A program made the position numbers and the translations under genes. Positions 20,645 through 33,196 of a DNA stretch of 49,487 nt are shown here, piece by piece; the first letter of the stretch is position 1; each line of letters opens with the position of its first letter. Source of the stretch: Candidatus Brocadia sp. (GTDB lineage: Bacteria > Planctomycetota > Brocadiia > Brocadiales > Brocadiaceae). Location: NCBI GenBank assembly GCA_011525665.1, contig WYAU01000018.1:1-49487 (forward strand). The letters run 5' to 3'. Below the pieces are notes generated by a model. That model did not search any database and was not told where the DNA came from. It worked only from the letters and a program-made list of their open reading frames with translations.

Positions 20645-21460
20645 TTACATCTGTCTTTTCAGGATAAAAGGCAAATGTACCTGGTCTTGTTTATAGTCGC
20701 CTGTTAAAGCATACATAATAATATTTATGCCGAGGCGGAATGCCATAGCCCTTTGTGTCTCACCGCCGGGAATTACTTCATATTCCCAACTCCCAAGAGG
20801 ATCTTTTGCCCAGGCGCCGCCGAGGTCGTTCTGCGAATAGATGATAGCCGCCCGATTTTCTATCATGACAGCTTCCAGATAAGATTTTTCCATAATCCTG
20901 CCATAGGCCTGATTCAGTAAGTAAAAAGATTTGAAGATAGTATGGTCTGCAGGCAGCCTTTCCAGGGATTTATGTGGGAATAGTCGTTTAATTTCACGCC
21001 GGACGGATGTATCAAATCCAAAATTGCTCTTTCCAATACAGTCGTCAATTAATAGCGTGCCTCCGAATTCCAGGTATAATTTCAGATTGCTGATTTCTTT
21101 CTCGCTGAAAGGTGGGAATTCCTGATCGCCGGACATATAGAGGAATGGGTATTCAAAGAGATTGACGTCACCTGCCCGAAGGATTACGGCATCGATGCGC
21201 GCCTCAACGCTGGTTCGCTTGATAAGTTCCCACATCAGACGTTTTCCCGCATTGGGCCTGGGATTCCAGTTCCCACCAGAATATTCCAATTGGGCGAAGG
21301 TAAACTTTGAAGCCTCACCCATAGCGAAAATATGGTGGGGTGAAAGTATGAAACCACAGATTGCATAGATTGCGCAGATGAAAAATCTGAGATTTTTGTG
21401 GATAGCAAACCACACAGGCTCAGAGGCACTAATATTATAAAACACGGCTATTATTCTCAT
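20645..21460 (-). CDS. Exported DUF4159-domain protein
   Basis: 271 residues with an N-terminal hydrophobic signal (FFICAIYAICGFIL). The rest matches the DUF4159 pattern: KFTFAQLEYSGGNWNPRPNAGKRLMWEL, FPFLYMSGDQEFPPFSEKEISNLKLYLEFGGTLLIDD, and a C-terminal SWEYEVIPGGETQRAMAFRLGINIIMYALTGDYK. The fold is related to glutamine-amidotransferase-like domains seen in membrane-associated MoxR/BatA-type gene sets in planctomycetes; the molecular role is unknown. It stands alone here. The start is uncertain: ATG 21460 has only a weak GGTG upstream, and a GTG about 16 codons later would still give a signal peptide. Confidence 0.8.
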   Translation of the reverse strand: MRIIAVFYNISASEPVWFAIHKNLRFFICAIYAICGFILSPHHIFAMGEASKFTFAQLEYSGGNWNPRPNAGKRLMWELIKRTSVEARIDAVILRAGDVNLFEYPFLYMSGDQEFPPFSEKEISNLKLYLEFGGTLLIDDCIGKSNFGFDTSVRREIKRLFPHKSLERLPADHTIFKSFYLLNQAYGRIMEKSYLEAVMIENRAAIIYSQNDLGGAWAKDPLGSWEYEVIPGGETQRAMAFRLGINIIMYALTGDYKQDQVHLPFILKRQM

Positions 21461-21553
21461 TAATAAATATTACACCTGAATTTCTTTTTAAGTTCGTTAT
21501 TATATTTTATCTTCTTTTTATAAATCCGCTTAAAACCCCGGTCATATGCTATT

Positions 21554-21760
21554 CTAATCGCCTTTTAGATCTTCATATAAATCTTTTGCCGTTCCTATGT
21601 TTCTCAATCCTTTCTTGAGATTAGTCACAGCATCTTTAGCGCCTTTACATTCTTAATTTTTACATTGTTTAGATTCTCTTGTTTCAAACTTAATGTCTGT
21701 CAATAGTCCATGCCCGAATTCTTGACCTTATATTGCAGTTTGCAACTTCTTTGCATAAGG
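21554..21760 (-). pseudogene. Degraded minus-strand gene remnant after the radical-SAM-like gene
   Basis: Reading on the minus strand, one frame gives protein-like sequence interrupted by stops: '...GQEFGHGLLTDIKFETRE...' then stop, then 'ECKGAKDAVTNLKKGLRN' and 'IGTAKDLYEDLKGD' before a final stop (complement of 21554-21556). The amphipathic Lys/Glu-rich tail looks like a real C-terminus. I cannot identify the family. It is AT-rich like the neighbouring tcmP pair and probably represents the 3' end of a disrupted gene. The rest of the 21461-21761 gap holds nothing else I can name. Confidence 0.35.
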
Positions 21761-21761
21761 C

Positions 21762-22547
21762 TTATAAACTATTTGTAATTGTTCCACTTTTTATAAAATA
21801 TTCTTTATTCTTTTCCTTACAAAATTCAATTACTCGTTCACTTAAATCATTAAAATATTTCTTGTAATTTGGATACTTTGATACCATTGAATTGTAATTC
21901 ATCCTTCCAAAAATAATTTTATCGACAAAAGATATCGAATTCAGAATATCTCCGATATCCTGCTTAATTATATTTGGGGTAGGATAAGGTTCGATACTTA
22001 CCCATGTTTTTCTTCCACGCTTGTGAAGCTTATAAAGACATTCTATTCTTTCATCATATGGAGCAGAAAAAGGCTCGGTTTTCTTTCTAAAATTTTCGTC
22101 TAATGAAATTAATGTAATTCCGAATTCATTATCTTCTGAAAGCTGTTCCAGTTCTGAAGGTAAACAACCTTTTGTTAATGCAGTACACTTAATTTTAGCT
22201 TCATTAAGCATTTTAATTAATTTAATACTCAACTCTTCGATTTCATTATAACCATACATAAAAGGGTCCGTGCTAAAACAAAAGTGCACGAATTTCATTC
22301 TGGTTTTGTACTTGGGAATTTCTTTCTTTAATAAATCTATAGAGTTTTCAACAATCTTCGGTTTCATCCATTCTTCATATGATTCAACTTTACCAAATCT
22401 TCTTGCCATTAACATAGCGTAGCACGGATATAAACACCCGTGAGAACAGCCCAAAACATGGTTTATTGTATAGTCTCCATATTCTACACCTGTCTTATAC
22501 AGTAAGGAATTTCTTTTGATATATTCAAGAACACTGTTTTTCAACAT
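21762..22547 (-). CDS. Radical-SAM-like 'three-Cys-motif' protein, partner of TcmP
   Basis: 261 residues. The N-terminus carries GCSHGCLYPCYA, so the three cysteines (34, 38, 42) have CX3CX3C spacing rather than the canonical radical-SAM CX3CX2C. The remainder resembles spore-photoproduct-lyase-like and phage Gp37/Gp68-type TIM barrels: FVHFCFSTDPF, MLNEAKIKCTALTKG, FGITLISLDENFRKKTEP, KRGRKTWVSIEPYPTPNI. It likely binds an iron-sulfur cluster; substrate unknown. Its ATG overlaps the end of tcmP by 7 nt, so the two are translated together. Codon use is strongly AT-rich compared with the housekeeping genes, suggesting horizontal transfer. Confidence 0.75.
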   Translation of the reverse strand: MLKNSVLEYIKRNSLLYKTGVEYGDYTINHVLGCSHGCLYPCYAMLMARRFGKVESYEEWMKPKIVENSIDLLKKEIPKYKTRMKFVHFCFSTDPFMYGYNEIEELSIKLIKMLNEAKIKCTALTKGCLPSELEQLSEDNEFGITLISLDENFRKKTEPFSAPYDERIECLYKLHKRGRKTWVSIEPYPTPNIIKQDIGDILNSISFVDKIIFGRMNYNSMVSKYPNYKKYFNDLSERVIEFCKEKNKEYFIKSGTITNSL

Positions 22548-23725
22548 TTCACACTCACAGTAATTTTATATTTTCGGTAATCTAATGCAGTAGCTTTTCT
22601 GCCTCCTTCTGTATATGCAGGTTCTCTATCTATTATTATTTGATTGCCTTCCATCTCCTTCATTTTACCTTCATATTCTTTTTTAGAAAATGCTATTCCA
22701 TATTTTTCGAATAACTTAACCAACAATTCCTGAAGAGGCAGAGATTTTTTATGCTCCTTCAAAACATTCAAAATACCTTCTTTTAAATCGAAACCAGGTT
22801 GAATTGATGAATCAGGAAATTCGCACTCAAATAACACTTTCTGACCGCATCTTTGAATATTTTTTAATTCATTCCAAATTCGGCTCATGCTATCGGCCAT
22901 AAGAATCATACCTTCTTGGTGGTTAGAACCAAAAATTAAACGATATTTAGGGATATTTCCACTTTCTAACCTAATCGGTATATTAACAACATATGTAAAC
23001 AGATTTTTAATCTGTTTCACATATTCATTTAAGAAAAGTTCTTCTGCTCTGAACATACCAATTTTATCATTTTTATAATCGTCGATGATCGACTGCCAGT
23101 ATTCTCCATGGGCAATATTATTCATGCGCTCTTTAGTATTCGCCTCGTCCAATTCGTATTCATCCCCACTTTGGTCATCACTAAAAAGACTTTCATAATT
23201 TAACTTTAGCAATCTGCAACCTTCCCGTAAGAAGCCAAAGGAATTGAAATTTAAAAGCATTTCTAAAGAGGAAAAATTTTTAGCCTTTATTCGTTCAAAC
23301 TGCTGGAAATCGAGACATTTGATCCCATAAGGATCAATATAGAGAAACAAATTACAACGTGAATTCAAAGCAAGTATTTTACCTATGTTTTCTTCAAATG
23401 TTCCCGGCAATACTTCACAATTTTCATAACCTCTTAAATTGGTCTCTAACTCTTTGGTATAGTTGCGTTCTATAAATAAACCGCGTATGTCCTTGTTTTG
23501 GTTATCGTTTGCAAGAACAGAACGTATATGATTGGCAATTATTATTGGAGAACCTGTATGGCCGTCATCGAATCTTCCTTTTCCAGCAAAACAATCAATT
23601 ATTACCAAAGGTCTACGTGTTTTAAGGATTTTGGCAATGTAAGGCACTAAGTAACGATCAAAAATCTCATCCTTTTGAAGAGACCAGCCTTTTTTTATTT
23701 TAAAAAAATCTTTTGTATGTCCCAT
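22541..23725 (-). CDS. tcmP: Three-Cys-motif partner protein TcmP
   Basis: 394 residues. The N-terminal half looks like a methyltransferase-like Rossmann domain: VIIDCFAGKGRFDDGHTGSP resembles motif I with the surrounding FAGxG, and FLYIDPYGIK resembles motif IV. The middle (FGFLREGCRLL, AHGEYWQSIIDDY, PKYRLIFGSNHQEGMILMADSM) follows the sporadically distributed TcmP family, named for being encoded next to a three-cysteine-motif protein, as is the case here. The C-terminal 90 residues look like a winged-helix DNA-binding domain (LQELLVKLFEKYGIAFSKKEYEGKMKEME). Function is not established; the neighbourhood (PLD nuclease, type I R-M) hints at mobile-element conflict. Start ATG 23725 lacks a strong ribosome-binding site. 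Confidence 0.78.
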   Translation of the reverse strand: MGHTKDFFKIKKGWSLQKDEIFDRYLVPYIAKILKTRRPLVIIDCFAGKGRFDDGHTGSPIIIANHIRSVLANDNQNKDIRGLFIERNYTKELETNLRGYENCEVLPGTFEENIGKILALNSRCNLFLYIDPYGIKCLDFQQFERIKAKNFSSLEMLLNFNSFGFLREGCRLLKLNYESLFSDDQSGDEYELDEANTKERMNNIAHGEYWQSIIDDYKNDKIGMFRAEELFLNEYVKQIKNLFTYVVNIPIRLESGNIPKYRLIFGSNHQEGMILMADSMSRIWNELKNIQRCGQKVLFECEFPDSSIQPGFDLKEGILNVLKEHKKSLPLQELLVKLFEKYGIAFSKKEYEGKMKEMEGNQIIIDREPAYTEGGRKATALDYRKYKITVSVKC

Positions 23726-23734
23726 TTTGCCTAA

Positions 23735-23829
23735 TTATAGTAAACGAAATAAACAAGTTGACATGTAATAGCCAATTTTGGTGGAATAGCTAACAATTTA
23801 TACCTATTTATTAATTGCGTTTACTATAA
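23735..23829. mobile_element. 95-bp element with perfect 12-bp terminal inverted repeats (MITE-like)
   Basis: TTATAGTAAACG at 23735-23746 is repeated as its exact complement CGTTTACTATAA at 23818-23829, with 71 bp of AT-rich sequence without coding capacity between. Each terminus carries an outward TATAA-type -10 sequence; the left one (TATAAT on the minus strand) lies about 10 nt from tcmP and may serve as its promoter. The right terminus abuts the stop of a broken gene. It could be a miniature inverted-repeat element or an operator-type palindrome. Confidence 0.55.
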
Positions 23830-23830
23830 C

Positions 23831-24007
23831 TTAATCCAAAATCATTTTTTTCAACCTCTTTTTCGCTTCTTCGATAAAAGCAATCCGCCATCTTGGGTCT
23901 TTTATATCAAGCATTTCCACTGCTTTTTCAAAAAATTTACCATAACAGGAACGTTCTTATTTTATCCTTGCTGAAGCTTCTGCTCCGAATATATAAACTA
24001 TTTTCAT
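23831..24007 (-). pseudogene. Small broken gene (one in-frame stop), unidentified
   Basis: On the minus strand an ATG (complement of 24005-24007) starts MKIVYIFGAEASARIK, meets TAA, and in the same frame continues with KFFEKAVEMLDIKDPRW, RIAFIEEAKKRLKKMILD and a final TAA at 23831-23833. The second half is convincingly protein-like (59 codons in all). I cannot assign it. Its stop codon directly borders the 95-bp inverted-repeat element, so it may have been cut or fused by that element. Confidence 0.4.
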
Positions 24008-24023
24008 TACATTAGCTACTATA

Positions 24024-24635
24024 TTATTTTGGTTGATATTTTGAAATCGTCTTGAGCTTTTCAAGAAATGCCTCTGCCACTCTGCGTGATTTTATCAAGA
24101 CGGATGCCTCATGGTTTTTCTTTAGTGCACTATACGTCCAGTTCGTACTGCCCACAATGGTGATATAGTCATCTATGACCAATATCTTACTGTGGGTAAC
24201 ACGGTCGATACTGTCGTAATACACAGGGACGCCATTCTTTTTCAGCAATTCGTATGCTTCACTACTTTTCCTTTCCGTCTTTTTCTGTTTTTCCCCCGTT
24301 TCCCAAAACATGATATTTTGATCAAAGATAACCGTTACATTTACTCCACGCCTATGTGCGTTAATGAGGTCATTGATCAGGTTATATTCCCAACCCTGTT
24401 TATATTTTGGATTAATATCGGCGATGTACATGACACACAGGATAGATTTCTTTGCGGTGGTTAAAGCCTGGTGTACCTGTGAGTAATAGTCTCCATCCAC
24501 CAAGGGTATGACATCGTCGGCAGGCAGAGCAAAGGAAGGAGGCGTGTAAGAGATGCAGAGAACAAAAATAACTATAATGGGAAATTTATTTATCATGTGT
24601 TTCAGGTATTTCATAAAATATGTTAATTTTTGCAT
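24024..24635 (-). CDS. Secreted phospholipase D-family nuclease with a single HKD motif
   Basis: 203 residues with an N-terminal signal peptide (FPIIVIFVLCISYTPPSFA). The PLD catalytic motif is HSKILVIDDYITIVGSTN (His148, Lys150, Asp155, with GSxN following), as in the bacterial Nuc endonuclease, which works as a dimer to make one active site. It should cleave DNA or phosphodiesters in the periplasm or outside. The start ATG 24635 directly follows the mtaB stop, and in-frame ATGs at 24614 and 24596 would still leave a signal peptide. Nucleotide composition is AT-rich like tcmP, unlike mtaB, so it may be an acquired rider on the mtaB transcript. Confidence 0.85.
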   Translation of the reverse strand: MQKLTYFMKYLKHMINKFPIIVIFVLCISYTPPSFALPADDVIPLVDGDYYSQVHQALTTAKKSILCVMYIADINPKYKQGWEYNLINDLINAHRRGVNVTVIFDQNIMFWETGEKQKKTERKSSEAYELLKKNGVPVYYDSIDRVTHSKILVIDDYITIVGSTNWTYSALKKNHEASVLIKSRRVAEAFLEKLKTISKYQPK

Positions 24636-27512: not shown

Positions 27513-30272
27513 ATGACGCCATTCAGAATAAGCGAGGCCCAAACCCGTTATAATTATATTGATCCCCAACTGGAAAAAGCAGAGTGGAATCTGAATGACC
27601 ACACTCAGGTGGGTTTCGAAATCCCTGTCGATGGATATGATAAAACAACAATCGGCGGAATTACTGATTACTGTCTCTATCGTGAAAATGGCGAAGTCAT
27701 TGCGGTAGTAGAGGCAAAACGGACGTGCAGAGATGCCCGTGTCGGCAAGCAGCAGGTGTTTGACTATGTTGCAGCCATCGAGAAAAAGCAAACCTTCAGG
27801 CCTTTTGCCTTCATGGCAAATGGTGAAGATGTTTTCTTCTGGGAGACGGATTCTGGCGCCGAGCGACACGTGGCAGGTTTTTTCTCTCGCAAAAACCTCG
27901 AAAGAATCCTTTTCTTAAAACAGAACCGGCTTCCTTTAAATGCTATCCAGATAAAGTCATCAATCATAGATCGGGCTTATCAGGTAGAAGCGATACGAAG
28001 AATCTCCGAGGCCATCGAAGTAAAGAAAAGGCGAAAAGCCCTCTTGGTCATGGCTACCGGAACCGGAAAGACACGTACCATCATGGCGCTTATCGATGTA
28101 TTTCTCCGTGCACGAACTGCCCAGCAGGTACTCTTTCTTGCAGATCGGGACGCCTTAGTAGATCAAGCCTTAACGGATGGTTTTAAGGCGCATCTTCCCC
28201 ATGAATCCCGCGCGCGAATTCGAACTTACAAAATTGATAAAACGGCCAGGGTATACGTTTCTACCTTACAAACCCTGGAAATGTGTTATAACCAATTTAC
28301 TCCCGCAGATTTTGATTTAATCATCTCCGATGAATGTCACCGTTCTATCTACAATAAATATACCGATGTCCTTGCGTATTTTGACGCAATACAAATCGGA
28401 TTAACCGCCACACCTGCACAGTATATCGACCGCGACACTTTTAAATTCTTTGATTGTGATGGAATTACACCAACCTATCTGTATATCTACGAACAGGCTG
28501 TTAATGAGAAATACCTTGCCGATTATAATGTGTATGCCGCACAAACGAAATTCCAGCGCAAGGGCATTAAAGGCGTAGACCTTACTGAAGAAGATAAAGA
28601 GAATCTGCGTGCCCGTGGTATTGATCCCGATGAGATAAATTACGAAGGTACAGACCTTGAAAGGAAGGTAACAAATCAGGACACCTTGCGGCGACAGTGG
28701 GAAGAGTTTATGGACGTCTGCCAGAAAGATTCAACAGGCCAATTACCGGCAAAAACCATTGTGTTTGCCATTACCCACAACCACGCAATGAGGCTTTCAG
28801 AAACCTTCAATGAGATGTATCCGGAGCATCAGGGTAAATTGGTGCAGGTAATTGATTCCAAAATGGAGCGTGCTAAAGATTTACTAGATAATTTCAAAAA
28901 AGAGAATTTCCCGCGCATTGCAATCTCCGTAGATATGCTGGATACCGGTGTGGACATCCCGGAGGTCACTAACCTCGCATTCATGAAGCCTATAAACTCA
29001 CAGATAAAGTTCTGGCAGATGATCGGGCGTGGGACGCGAAGCCATGAGACATGTACTCATCTTGACTGGCTTCCCAATCGCAAGAAAGAAAATTTCCTTA
29101 TTGTTGATTTCTGGGAGAATTTCAGTCATTTTCAGATGATGCCCAAAGACGAAGATGGCACGAGGCAAATCCCTGTATTGGTAACCATCTTCAATACCCG
29201 TCTTAATAAAATGAGCTTATTTTTAGGAGATCAGTCATCGGAAGATGCTAAAAGAATTGCAAGGGATTTGCGTGCTGACATTGCCAAAATTCCTTTAAAA
29301 TCGTTTTCCGTAAAAAAGGTATTCAAGGAAGTCCGTGAGGCATGGGAAGACGATTTCTGGCGTTATCTGACTCAGGATAAGATTCAGTTCCTCAGACTCA
29401 AAGTGTCTCCGCTTTTACGTTATGTGCCTGGTATAAACCCAATCGAAGCATTCTTTGTAAGCAAGATGGAACGCTGCGGGCTTTCCTTCTTACAGCATAA
29501 AGAACTAACACAACATATAGAATCCATCCGTGAGGACGTTTCGCTCCTTCCATCAACGATTAAAGATGTAGAGGCGCAGCAAAAGTTAATAAACGATGTC
29601 TTATCAAATGAATTTTGGTTCAATATTTCACTCAAAAAAATTGATGATGCAAAGGAAACGCTCACGCCGCTCATGAAATACCGCCGTGAACGTCCATCAT
29701 TGGTGATAGAACTGGGGCTGGATGACATCATTGATTCACGGAAATGGGTAATCTTGCGAAAAGATACCCAGAAGGTCTATGTAGAAGAATATCGGAAGAA
29801 GGTGGAAGAAAAAATCGAGCAGATTGTCAAGGAACACCCCACCATTCAGAGACTCAAGCGTGGAGAATCAGTTAACGCAAGTGATCTGGTAAAATTAGAA
29901 GAGACCTTAGAAAACGAACTGTCTACCGAAGATATCAGCCTGGACGAGGAGAATATGCTAAAGGCGTTCGGTATCCGTGCAGGAAGCTTTGTTGATTTCC
30001 TGAAGCACGTTCTCAATATTGAGACAATGCCGACGTATGAGACAATCGTACGCAAGGCGTTTGATGCATTTATCCTGGAACACAACTACAATGCCGATCA
30101 ATCACGTTTCTTGCACGCAGTCCAAAATGTCTTCATTCATCGGCGTAAGCTGGAACTCGCTGACCTTTACGAAGAGCCGTTTACCAATTTTGGGACGAAT
30201 GCAGTGGAAAAGCTGTTTAGTAACAAAGACATTAATGAATTAATCGAGTTAACCAATAAGTTAACGGCATGA
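27513..30272 (+). CDS. hsdR: Type I restriction endonuclease subunit R
   Basis: Motor and nuclease subunit of a type I restriction-modification system. The N-terminal PD-(D/E)xK nuclease is visible as GGITDYCLY...VVEAKR (Asp52, Glu67, Lys69). The superfamily 2 translocase follows: Walker A ATGTGKT (181-187), SDECHRS (272-278), GLTATP, and motif VI-like QMIGRGTR. Residues about 620-919 form the helical part and C-terminal assembly domain. All key residues are intact, so the subunit should be active. AGG lies before ATG 27513. hsdM starts 214 nt downstream, with a truncated unrelated gene between them. Confidence 0.95.
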   Translation: MTPFRISEAQTRYNYIDPQLEKAEWNLNDHTQVGFEIPVDGYDKTTIGGITDYCLYRENGEVIAVVEAKRTCRDARVGKQQVFDYVAAIEKKQTFRPFAFMANGEDVFFWETDSGAERHVAGFFSRKNLERILFLKQNRLPLNAIQIKSSIIDRAYQVEAIRRISEAIEVKKRRKALLVMATGTGKTRTIMALIDVFLRARTAQQVLFLADRDALVDQALTDGFKAHLPHESRARIRTYKIDKTARVYVSTLQTLEMCYNQFTPADFDLIISDECHRSIYNKYTDVLAYFDAIQIGLTATPAQYIDRDTFKFFDCDGITPTYLYIYEQAVNEKYLADYNVYAAQTKFQRKGIKGVDLTEEDKENLRARGIDPDEINYEGTDLERKVTNQDTLRRQWEEFMDVCQKDSTGQLPAKTIVFAITHNHAMRLSETFNEMYPEHQGKLVQVIDSKMERAKDLLDNFKKENFPRIAISVDMLDTGVDIPEVTNLAFMKPINSQIKFWQMIGRGTRSHETCTHLDWLPNRKKENFLIVDFWENFSHFQMMPKDEDGTRQIPVLVTIFNTRLNKMSLFLGDQSSEDAKRIARDLRADIAKIPLKSFSVKKVFKEVREAWEDDFWRYLTQDKIQFLRLKVSPLLRYVPGINPIEAFFVSKMERCGLSFLQHKELTQHIESIREDVSLLPSTIKDVEAQQKLINDVLSNEFWFNISLKKIDDAKETLTPLMKYRRERPSLVIELGLDDIIDSRKWVILRKDTQKVYVEEYRKKVEEKIEQIVKEHPTIQRLKRGESVNASDLVKLEETLENELSTEDISLDEENMLKAFGIRAGSFVDFLKHVLNIETMPTYETIVRKAFDAFILEHNYNADQSRFLHAVQNVFIHRRKLELADLYEEPFTNFGTNAVEKLFSNKDINELIELTNKLTA

Positions 30273-30362
30273 TTGAATTGAGAAATAATAGATAGTCACT
30301 AACTAAAGAAAATTCTCGAAGCGATTTTTGGCATAATTCAAAAACAATTTAACGAGGAAAAA

Positions 30363-30560
30363 ATGTATCTGTGTAAATTGGAATTGAAAGACTTTCGAGG
30401 AATTAAAAAGGGTGTAATTATTTTTCCTGAACACTGTGTATTGATTGGAAGAAATATCAAATTCATAAAAAGTATAAAAAATCACAATGCTTACCAACCC
30501 AATTTTAAGATCCAAAGTAGATGCCCTCTGGGACCGTTTCTGGTCTGGAGGCATCTCTAA
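30363..30560 (+). pseudogene. Beheaded OLD-family/AAA ATPase gene: N-terminal fragment only
   Basis: A well-placed ribosome-binding site (GAGGAAAA) precedes an ATG, and the first 31 codons (MYLCKLELKDFRGIKKG, VIIFPEHCVLIGRN) match the N-terminal strands of OLD-type and AAA-15 nucleases, which continue NNxGKST in the Walker A loop. Here the sequence leaves the family exactly at that point (about 30455) and runs into the hsdM start in another frame. The fragment cannot bind ATP. It looks like the relic of a defence gene lost by deletion between hsdR and hsdM. Confidence 0.65.
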
Positions 30561-31965
30561 TCCACTTACCGCCATCGAGCAGATGTCCTATCTCATCTTT
30601 TTGAAACGTCTTGAAGATATGGACAATTCCAGGGCTGTATCCGCCAAACGAAGAGGGCAGACCCATAAATCTATTTTTAAGGGGAACGAAAAATGCCGCT
30701 GGTCGTACTGGAGTCAATTGCCCGGTGACCAGATGCTCAAACACGTGCGGGATACGGTATTCGAATTCCTGCGTTCACTCGGTGGAGAGACAAGTTCATT
30801 CACTCAGCACATGCAGGATGCCGTGTTTATTATTCCAAAGGCATCACTACTACAAGAAGCCGTGAAGATTATTGATGATTTGCACATTGCGGAACAGAAT
30901 ATTGACGTGCAGGGCGACCTTTACGAATATCTCTTATTACAGCTTACCACGGCAGGCAAAAACGGTCAGTTCAGGACGCCAAGACACATTATCCGCATGA
31001 TGGTCAAACTTGTTGATCCGAAGATCGGCGACCGCATTTGCGACCCTGCGGCAGGTACGGGCGGATTTCTCGTCAATGCCTATGAACACATCCTGGAATC
31101 CAACACCAGCCCGGATATACTTGAATATGACAATGAAGGAAAGCCACATCACCTGATTGGTGATAAGATAGCCGACAAACGACTCCTGCAGTTTCTGAAA
31201 AACCATGCTCTTACCGGTTACGACTTTGACCCGACGATGACGCGCATCGGCGCTATGAACCTGATGCTGCACGGTATAGACAATCCAAACTTCTGTCAGA
31301 CGGATACACTCTCAAAGGCATTTAAAGAAAAGGAAATATATGAAGTAGTCCTTGCAAATCCGCCCTTCACAGGTTCAATTGATAAGAGTGACATCAACGA
31401 ACGGTTTTCGGTAAAAACGACAAAAACGGAACTGCTTTTCGTGGAACTAACGTATGATCTGCTCGTAACAGGTGGTCGCTGTGGCGTGATTGTGCCTGAC
31501 GGTGTGATTTTTAGAATGAGCAATGCCCATATTAATACTCGGAAAATCCTTATGGATAAGTGCAAGCTTGAGGGCGTTATCTCCATGCCTTCTGGAGTTT
31601 TCAAACCGTATGCAGGTGCCTCTACGGCAGTATTAATCTTCCAGAAGAGTGGGACAACGGATAAGGTATGGTTCTATGATATGGAAGCGGACGGTTTTTC
31701 TCTCGACGACAAACGGCAGAAAATAGAGGCTAACGATATCCCTGATATTATAGAGAAGTGGAAAACAAAGGCAGAATCAAAGAAGTCGCTCCTTGTATCT
31801 GTGGATGAGATACGGGAAAACAAATACGACCTCTCCATCTCACGTTACAAACCAATAGAACACAAAGAAATTAAATACGAAAAGCCTGATGTGATTATGA
31901 AAAAGGTGTTGAAGCTGGAAAAGGAAATCGCACAGGATATTGAAGAAATTCAGACAATGTTGTAA
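30487..31965 (+). CDS. hsdM: Type I restriction-modification DNA methyltransferase subunit M
   Basis: N6-adenine methyltransferase of the type I system. The 492-residue protein has the helical N-terminal domain (LRSKVDALWDRFWSGG, EQMSYLIFLKRLED), S-adenosylmethionine motif I DPAAGTGGF (about 185) and the catalytic motif IV NPPF (291-294). The last residues AQDIEEIQTML are followed by a stop and a palindromic repeat, after which a second copy of the tail (TQDIEEIQETVQ) is found in another frame ending at the hsdS ATG, so the present C-terminus seems to be a rewritten one. No strong ribosome-binding site precedes ATG 30487. Confidence 0.95.
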   Translation: MLTNPILRSKVDALWDRFWSGGISNPLTAIEQMSYLIFLKRLEDMDNSRAVSAKRRGQTHKSIFKGNEKCRWSYWSQLPGDQMLKHVRDTVFEFLRSLGGETSSFTQHMQDAVFIIPKASLLQEAVKIIDDLHIAEQNIDVQGDLYEYLLLQLTTAGKNGQFRTPRHIIRMMVKLVDPKIGDRICDPAAGTGGFLVNAYEHILESNTSPDILEYDNEGKPHHLIGDKIADKRLLQFLKNHALTGYDFDPTMTRIGAMNLMLHGIDNPNFCQTDTLSKAFKEKEIYEVVLANPPFTGSIDKSDINERFSVKTTKTELLFVELTYDLLVTGGRCGVIVPDGVIFRMSNAHINTRKILMDKCKLEGVISMPSGVFKPYAGASTAVLIFQKSGTTDKVWFYDMEADGFSLDDKRQKIEANDIPDIIEKWKTKAESKKSLLVSVDEIRENKYDLSISRYKPIEHKEIKYEKPDVIMKKVLKLEKEIAQDIEEIQTML

Positions 31966-31967
31966 CT

Positions 31968-31995
31968 GTAGCGCGAGCTTCAGCTCGCTAACTAC
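31968..31995. repeat. Palindromic repeat, short copy C, between hsdM and hsdS
   Basis: A 28-nt single hairpin unit (GTAGCGCGAGCTTCAGCTCG then CTAACTAC) related to the arms of copies A, B, D and E. It starts 3 nt after the hsdM stop and is bracketed by the duplicated hsdM tail (31930-31953 and 32007-32030). Confidence 0.7.
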
Positions 31996-32041
31996 AAAAG
32001 GATTTTACGCAGGATATTGAGGAAATTCAAGAGACGGTGCA

Positions 32042-33196
32042 ATGAAGAAAAACACTCCATTGGTTCCATTACTAGAAGTTTGCCAGATAAATCCAAAGTC
32101 ACTAAATGGTTTTCAACCAAATACTGGAGTTACTTTTGTACCAATGGCAGCTGTTGATGAAAAGACAGCAAAGATTCAATACCCAGTGGTTAGAACTTAT
32201 CAAGAAGTAGCAAAAGGATTCTCAGTTTTTAAAGAAGATGATGTTCTATTTGCGAAAATTACTCCATGTATGGAAAATGGGAAATGTGCTATTGCAAGGA
32301 ATCTTTTGAATGGTTGGGGCTTTGGTTCAACAGAATTTCATGTTTTGCGCGCTTCAGATAAAATCATTCCAAGCTGGATTTTCTATTTCTTGCGGCAGGA
32401 GCAATTTCGTCAATTTGCTGCTGCGAATATGACAGGAACGGCTGGTCAACAGCGGGTGCCTAAGAGTTTCTTCGAAAAAGTAAAAATTCCTCTTCCTCCG
32501 CTTCCTGTTCAAAGGAAAATAACCGCAATATTGGAGAAAGCCGATGCTGCGCGGGAGAAGCGGAGGCAGGCAAACCAACTCACCGAACAGTTCTTGCAGT
32601 CCACCTTCCTCGAAATGATCGACGATCCTGTAACGAATCCAAAGAAATTTGAAATGAAAAAATTTGGAGATGTTGCAAGAATAAATATGGGACAATCTCC
32701 ACCTGGTGATAGTTATAATAATACAGGGGAGGGAATTCCTCTGCTTAATGGACCTACTGAATTCGGAGTTAAAAGCCCTACTGAAAAGCAATGGACAATA
32801 AAACCTACAAAACTTGCCAAGAAAGGAGAAATTCTATTTTGCGTTAGAGGTGCAACTGCTGGAAGAATGAACTGGGCTGATAAAGAATATTGTATTGGTC
32901 GTGGGTTAGCTTCTATTTCTTCATTAGATGTAGTATTAAATGAATATGTCTATTTTTTCCTTCTTAATAAATATAATTATTTTCAAAATCTGGGGCAAGG
33001 AAGTACTTTTATTAATTTGAATAGAGATTTGATTTCAGATATTAAAATCCCTGTTCCACCGCTCTCCGAGCAGCGGAAATTTGCTAAATTGGTCGAGAAG
33101 GTCGAGTCGTTGCACGCCAGGCAGCGTCAATCGGAGCAGGAACTGGAGAATCTCTTCAACAGCTTAATGCAGAGGGCATTTCGTGGAGAGTTGTAG
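32042..33196 (+). CDS. hsdS: Type I restriction-modification specificity subunit S
   Basis: DNA-recognition subunit, 384 residues, with two target-recognition domains. TRD1 covers about 1-155 and ends at the conserved KIPLPPLPVQRKI; a coiled-coil spacer rich in Lys, Arg and Glu follows (DAAREKRRQANQLTEQFLQ). TRD2 covers about 205-345 and ends at KIPVPPLSEQRKF, again followed by a coiled coil. Each TRD reads one half of a bipartite target. The target sequence cannot be predicted. The start ATG overlaps, in the ATGA arrangement, the stop of the second (relic) hsdM tail at 32043-32045, indicating an originally coupled hsdM-hsdS. Confidence 0.93.
   Translation: MKKNTPLVPLLEVCQINPKSLNGFQPNTGVTFVPMAAVDEKTAKIQYPVVRTYQEVAKGFSVFKEDDVLFAKITPCMENGKCAIARNLLNGWGFGSTEFHVLRASDKIIPSWIFYFLRQEQFRQFAAANMTGTAGQQRVPKSFFEKVKIPLPPLPVQRKITAILEKADAAREKRRQANQLTEQFLQSTFLEMIDDPVTNPKKFEMKKFGDVARINMGQSPPGDSYNNTGEGIPLLNGPTEFGVKSPTEKQWTIKPTKLAKKGEILFCVRGATAGRMNWADKEYCIGRGLASISSLDVVLNEYVYFFLLNKYNYFQNLGQGSTFINLNRDLISDIKIPVPPLSEQRKFAKLVEKVESLHARQRQSEQELENLFNSLMQRAFRGEL

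Follow-up and report, generated by a model that had tools for sequence, protein, structure and literature searches.

A mobile pair of genes, encoding a TcmP protein and a radical-SAM protein with three cysteines spaced CX3CX3C, was found at a chromosomal cargo site in the 49,487-nt stretch of DNA of an anammox-type bacterium analysed here (the window), and among relatives of the pair TcmP is an exchanged cassette, swapped whole beside a nearly constant radical-SAM gene, as is clear in three independent groups of loci. The explanation tentatively preferred, which is given somewhat less than an even chance, is that the pair is a mobile two-subunit nucleic-acid-modifying system, directed most likely against phages or other elements, in which TcmP would be the exchangeable specificity subunit. 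The features of the locus are listed in Table 1.

Table 1 Features of the TcmP and radical-SAM locus and its surroundings in the window
Feature	Positions	Strand	Remarks
TcmP gene	22541..23725	minus	394 aa; profile match and predicted model
Methyltransferase-fold part of TcmP, aa 13-291	22853..23689	minus	K18, D44-x-F-A-G-x-G (motif I), D131-P-Y-G (motif IV), R167
C-terminal tail of TcmP, aa 314-392	22550..22786	minus	predicted winged-helix-like
Radical-SAM gene	21762..22547	minus	261 aa; profile match and predicted model
C34-X3-C38-X3-C42 codons	22422..22448	minus	motif GCSHGCLYPCYA
Transferred unit, pair and short upstream stretch	21755..23871	minus	86.5% DNA identity with locus L039 over only this stretch
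89-bp MITE	23738..23826	.	termini TAGTAAACG...CGTTTACTA; TA target duplication; ends at 23736 and 23828
HsdR	27513-30272	+	type I R-M
HsdM	30487-31965	+	type I R-M
HsdS	32042-33196	+	type I R-M

The original prediction described two AT-rich genes overlapping by 7 nt, and both points hold, with exact coordinates: the end of TcmP and the start of the radical-SAM gene have 22541-22547 in common on the minus strand, and the GC content of the pair is 0.319 within a window of 0.436. Translational coupling through the overlap is likely from the sequence, and in relatives the distance between the two genes is mostly -53 to +55 nt. A promoter and terminator scan gave nothing above chance level, and Rfam and tRNA scans of the whole window gave zero matches. 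Gene remnants had been predicted on both sides of the pair; upstream this is plausible, as the last codons of a reading frame ending in IAFIEEAKKRLKKMILD before its stop codon match a decayed gene 5' of the pair in a distant planctomycete (locus L039), whereas downstream, at 21470-21760, no recognisable remnant was seen.

Structure prediction of both proteins, which had been proposed as a check, gave an RlmJ-like TcmP and a partner resembling spore photoproduct lyase (SPL). The identity of TcmP was confirmed by family TIGR04474 (113.8 bits, curated cut-off 53), and like other members it adjoins a three-cysteine protein, as the family name states; it differs in being a divergent branch, about 21-28% identical to other planctomycete TcmPs, with a C-terminal extension. 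The methyltransferase-like motifs noticed earlier are present and are backed by the predicted model (28-sequence alignment, pLDDT 85), for which the 23S rRNA m6A2030 methyltransferase RlmJ is the best fold match (Z 16.9, rmsd 3.0, 211 aligned) and tRNA Trm1 the second (Z 13.4). At a median pairwise identity of 19%, K18, Y25, D44, G50, D131, P132 and R167 are conserved in 91-93 of the 94 TcmPs, with the N-terminal lysine K18 kept in 92/94 and the motif IV aspartate D131 in 93/94. RlmJ catalysis requires K18 and D164 (PMC3814359), which K18 and D131 of the modelled TcmP recall by position and fold, not by residue-by-residue superposition. Motif IV departs from the RlmJ type, DPP(Y/F), in that TcmP has DPYG and most relatives have DP[YF]x, with G, A or N in the last position; as DPP(Y/F) is the form found in N6-adenine methyltransferases, this could indicate another reaction, or the binding of AdoMet only. 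TcmP is further set apart from RlmJ by its C-terminal tail and by being mobile, exchanged and paired. The winged helix proposed for this tail agrees with the secondary structure of the model (helices 314-325, 331-342 and 348-358, strands 363-368 and 387-392), although the window TcmP has no Pfam match for it and the GMT-wHTH match of one relative (PF22560, 21.9 bits) lies under the cut-off of 27.

The partner protein matches Radical_SAM (PF04055) at 49.1 bits, above the cut-off of 29.5, and DUF5131 (PF07505) at only 23.2 bits, below the gathering cut-off of 28.9. The predicted CX3CX3C spacing is present here and in 110/110 dereplicated radical-SAM relatives, in place of the canonical CX3CX2C; the protein had been called unlike canonical radical SAM, which is right for the spacing, but by Pfam and fold it still lies inside radical SAM. 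A signature, WxSxEPYPTPNxxxQ, is kept together with the three cysteines in nearly all relatives, and catalytic-type residues are retained in both TcmP and the radical-SAM protein. The predicted partner model (57-sequence alignment, pLDDT 92) is closest in fold to SPL (Z 19.5, rmsd 3.1, 240/261 residues aligned), followed by PFL-activating enzyme as the next family (Z 15.6). Prokaryotic viperins are radical-SAM proteins of antiviral defence which produce modified NTPs without requiring a TcmP; their structures score 14.8 against the partner model, well below SPL. The cysteine and TSDP/STDP regions of the partner can be aligned with those of SPL, and in a profile alignment with a low probability score the extra residue falls between the second and third cysteines. 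A possible counterpart of the radical-transfer cysteine of SPL, C90 (89/94), lies near the stretch aligned with TSD, where the register is only approximate and the six aligned SPL homologues have no cysteine. Besides this extra residue, the partner differs from SPL in being about 80 residues shorter and paired with TcmP, and the SPL profile PF20903, which does detect SPLs in other genomes, is not among its Pfam matches at E 0.1. The resemblance to SPL is carried by the predicted fold and not by the low-probability profile alignment, and Pfam and fold together place the partner within radical SAM, nearest to SPL. A PDB sequence search with either TcmP or the partner gave no credible relatives.

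A search with seven radical-SAM relatives gave 274 matching stretches in a collection of species-level genomes, of which 80 were kept, and a further 30 loci on viral contigs; the matches come from the Planctomycetota, Nitrospirota, Spirochaetes, Clostridia, Alphaproteobacteria, Endomicrobia, Actinobacteria, Cloacimonadota and other groups. Pairing of TcmP with the CX3CX3C radical-SAM gene is near-obligate: TcmP lies directly upstream in 104 of the 109 loci that have a same-strand upstream gene (a few loci repeat a contig). A scan of viral sequences with TcmP alone gave no match, and a scan with the radical-SAM partner gave many. In 27 of 30 sampled other planctomycete TcmP loci the neighbour is of the DUF5131 type, with CX6CX2C. 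TcmP is therefore found with radical-SAM-like partners of two or more kinds, and among planctomycetes the CX3CX3C partner of the window is the rarer kind.

The mobility of the pair is evident from its distribution and its surroundings. Ten same-genus genomes had no close relative of the radical-SAM gene, and eight same-genus genomes in the phylum search had no TcmP match. Three of the same-genus genomes have the gene order rSAM(19173)-DUF4159-gap-PLD-MtaB-AlaDH but lack the pair, and in two of these three the gap holds other cargo, a HEPN-like gene with DUF7718/DUF5647 in one, and DUF433/DUF5615 (PIN-like), HEPN and nucleotidyltransferase genes in the other. The gap between DUF4159 and PLD (window 21460-24024; L194-L196) is therefore a cargo site in the genus, at which toxin-antitoxin or HEPN-type genes vary by species, and the PLD gene is ancestral. 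In the distant planctomycete a 2.1-kb unit stands among unrelated genes, and because its match to the window is bounded in different surroundings, what moved was the pair with a little upstream DNA.

Three neighbouring features had been put forward in support of a mobile module. The inverted-repeat element near the promoter is real: it is a MITE that sits 10-12 nt ahead of the start codon of TcmP, beside which it brings a TATAAT, and it belongs to a family with TAGTAAACG termini that occurs in the genome at 89, about 127 and 183 bp (outside the window at L151 and L152). As a sign of the module's mobility, and as the mover of the pair, it is ruled out by an exact empty site in L039 (CCTAAT-TA-ACTT, versus CCTAAT-TA-[89 bp]-TA-ACTT here), and it is a later insertion inside the transferred unit and outside the module. 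The PLD nuclease lends no support either, and is ruled out as a third component, being an ancestral neighbour kept in the three sister genomes that are without the pair. The complete-looking type I R-M system (27513-33196, plus strand) lies between AlaDH and ArgJ, which are adjacent in sister genome G138; it is a separate insertion, is ruled out as part of the insertion of the pair, and is withdrawn as support for the module.

A clue to a division of labour comes from the unequal divergence of the two genes. Among 94 pairs, radical-SAM proteins have a median pairwise identity of 64%, with a range narrowed by the way relatives were found, and TcmPs one of 19%, and clustering gave 11 clusters of TcmP at 33% versus one of the radical-SAM protein at 50%. 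Two comparisons are free of this search-imposed narrowing: where radical-SAM proteins are at least 90% identical, TcmP falls below 50% in 10/24 pairs, and where TcmPs are at least 80% identical, the radical-SAM protein falls below 70% in only 1/22. The ten exchange pairs form three groups (L091/L092; L064/L077; and L066/L073/L080/L096 versus L076/L099), in which TcmPs 14-45% identical stand beside radical-SAM proteins 93-98% identical; the respective radical-SAM and TcmP identities are 96% and 14% for L091/L092, 96% and 18% for L080/L076, 96% and 17% for L073/L099, and 98% and 45% for L064/L077. Between L091 and L092 TcmP alone was replaced, as the DNA is 92.6% identical for 3,474 bp starting at codon 5 of the radical-SAM gene and, upstream of TcmP, 90.7% identical over the adjoining 161 bp and about 80% over 3.3 kb beyond. 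The DNA breakpoints of L080/L076 and L073/L099 fall at nearly the same places, the ends of TcmP.

In relatives the surroundings of the pair are clearly richer in R-M, Abi, integrase and phage genes than matched control DNA, which agrees with the proposed link to defence. For 19 loci, the genes lying up to 5 kb from the pair were set against those in 10-kb control stretches taken 40 kb or more away on the same contigs (17 contigs), and at E 1e-15 there were 192 PADLOC family matches from 149 near genes versus 20 from 145 control genes, counts which are of families, not genes, and give the direction but no exact odds ratio. The near set contains type I, IIG and III R-M, AbiEi/ii and SoFic, none of which occurs in the control set, and a Pfam comparison of the same near and control genes agrees. 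Recurrent neighbours across the 110 loci are a DNA N6/N4 methylase family (15 loci, including L110:8985-9713), serine recombinases (15), ImmA/IrrE (13), HsdM (10), ResIII (7) and phage repressors, and the R-M families of the neighbour clustering are present in at least 25/110 loci. Ten of the N6/N4 methylase genes lie directly 3' of the radical-SAM gene, and in some lineages the methylase might be a third component.

The PADLOC candidates PDC-M30 and PDC-M41 have the same two-gene layout, and in each of them TcmP matches the A model while the radical-SAM protein matches the B model. Both matches are weak and cover only part of the length (47.2 bits over residues 16-147 for A, 24 bits over 18-94 for B), full-length recognition of both the A and B proteins was not obtained, and the partner in those candidates is DUF5131-like, whereas here it is not DUF5131 and has CX3CX3C instead of CX6CX2C. 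Among 100 P. aeruginosa strains, 32 were predicted to have PDC-M30, and 68.8% of these were phage-resistant (PMC10855318); in S. meliloti a TcmP gene was grouped with the Hna defence gene (PMC12445080). Together with the neighbourhood and the cargo site, the PDC-M30/M41 layout, the P. aeruginosa correlation and the Hna grouping favour defence. Against it counts the failure to find an activity, a complex or a phage phenotype for any TcmP pair; a literature search reaching few subscription papers or preprints gave no study on the function of TcmP or of DUF5131. The view of the pair as a mobile, possibly defensive module with no described function held for mobility and defence neighbourhood, given the empty syntenic sites, the L039 copy and the control, but the association had not gone unnoticed: a TcmP beside a three-cysteine protein is known from the family name, and a TcmP-type and DUF5131-like pair is a listed PADLOC candidate. 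What is new is that the SPL-like CX3CX3C variant forms a broad subfamily, that there are empty sites, and that TcmP is exchanged as a cassette.

A modification system with a target set by TcmP is preferred because a constant enzyme is combined with an exchanged, still catalytic-looking partner, in analogy to HsdS of type I restriction, where likewise one gene is replaced and its partners stay constant. There is no homology between HsdS and TcmP; by this analogy TcmP is probably the specificity subunit, and we infer a change of target on its exchange. The radical-SAM subunit would supply the constant chemistry, an SPL-like reaction in which a [4Fe-4S] cluster and AdoMet generate a radical acting on a base, while TcmP, in complex with it, would pick the target with its probable nucleic-acid-binding tail and probably methylate the same target, which judged by fold would more likely be RNA than DNA. 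Replacement of TcmP under the same promoter and beside the same radical-SAM gene would then give a new target. The enzymes matched in fold, SPL (a radical SAM enzyme of DNA lesions) and RlmJ (an RNA m6A methyltransferase), were counted in favour of this explanation, as were the near-obligate pairing, the tandem TcmPs, the exchange, the retained catalytic-type residues and the neighbourhood. On the other side stand the DPYG form of motif IV, the loci that have the radical-SAM gene without TcmP (L040, L060, L103 and L107), and the fact that toxin-antitoxin and counter-defence genes also sit in defence islands. The fuller proposal, that a constant SPL-like enzyme is aimed by exchangeable TcmPs at varied nucleic-acid targets as a form of modular immunity, and that a base is thereby modified by radical chemistry in a way not known from defence systems, is regarded as rather doubtful.

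The same islands could be explained by counter-defence, where a pair carried on prophages or integrative elements would modify the DNA of the element, or tRNA or rRNA, so that host restriction or tRNA cutting fails, and TcmP would be exchanged to match local defences. Relatives do occur on viral contigs beside repressors, ImmA/IrrE, recombinases and terminase, the radical-SAM gene is found in a phage-type locus (L107) with ThyX and replication-type genes, and in L032 (MT836112) the pair comes after integrases; the window copy and many others, however, are chromosomal with no phage genes near, and the R-M system beside the pair is often complete, rather than an opponent, which leaves this a fairly unlikely explanation. 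An abortive or toxin-antitoxin-like unit, in which one subunit would harm the cell (for example by tRNA or rRNA modification) once TcmP senses infection, with TcmP varying as sensor or immunity part, would suit the DUF433/DUF5615 (PIN-like), HEPN/nucleotidyltransferase and HEPN-like cargo at the same site in sister species, the AbiE and Fic genes near the pair in relatives and the gene overlap, which is typical of such pairs. It is considered unlikely in view of the full enzyme motifs in both proteins, the tandem TcmPs with a single radical-SAM gene, and the usual joint divergence of toxin and antitoxin, where here one partner is constant.

That the pair is an accessory arm of R-M, adding to DNA a modification that the restriction systems nearby would recognise or ignore, is suggested by the N6/N4 methylase, HsdM and ResIII genes counted above and by R-M genes flanking even loci without an intact TcmP (Dam-type and HNH in L042, ResIII in L044, Eco57I and a PLD helicase in L103), yet the R-M system in the window was inserted separately and the lower bound for R-M families is only 25 of the 110 loci, and we hold this to be quite improbable. 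A role in DNA repair or metabolism, with an SPL-like repair enzyme and a helper methyltransferase, would account for SPL as the closest fold of the partner; it is hard to credit, since the exchange of TcmP, the patchy spread and the neighbouring defence genes would not be expected of a repair pathway, the Pfam SPL family has no match and the cysteine spacing differs.

TcmP is an annotated NCBIfam family, for which the exchange gives a concrete indication of how labour may be divided between the subunits, and natural allele pairs (L091/L092, L076/L080 and L064/L077) are supplied with which to ask if the choice of target depends on TcmP. Should the pair prove to modify nucleic acid, the known defence repertoire would gain radical chemistry on nucleic acids.

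A few loci depart from the simple two-gene arrangement. The Brocadiaceae locus L040 (L040:7355-12723) has a radical-SAM relative (78%) without TcmP, flanked by a GrpE gene on one side and by Hsp70 and DnaJ-PDZ genes on the other, and its DNA match to the window ends about 20 nt inside the 3' end of TcmP. L117 and L129 have a TcmP broken into two ORFs, decayed or misassembled, beside an intact radical-SAM gene. Four loci (L124, L141, L143 and L144) carry the tandem order TcmP-TcmP-radical-SAM, and comparison of L102 with L143 suggests that a second TcmP was inserted behind the first.
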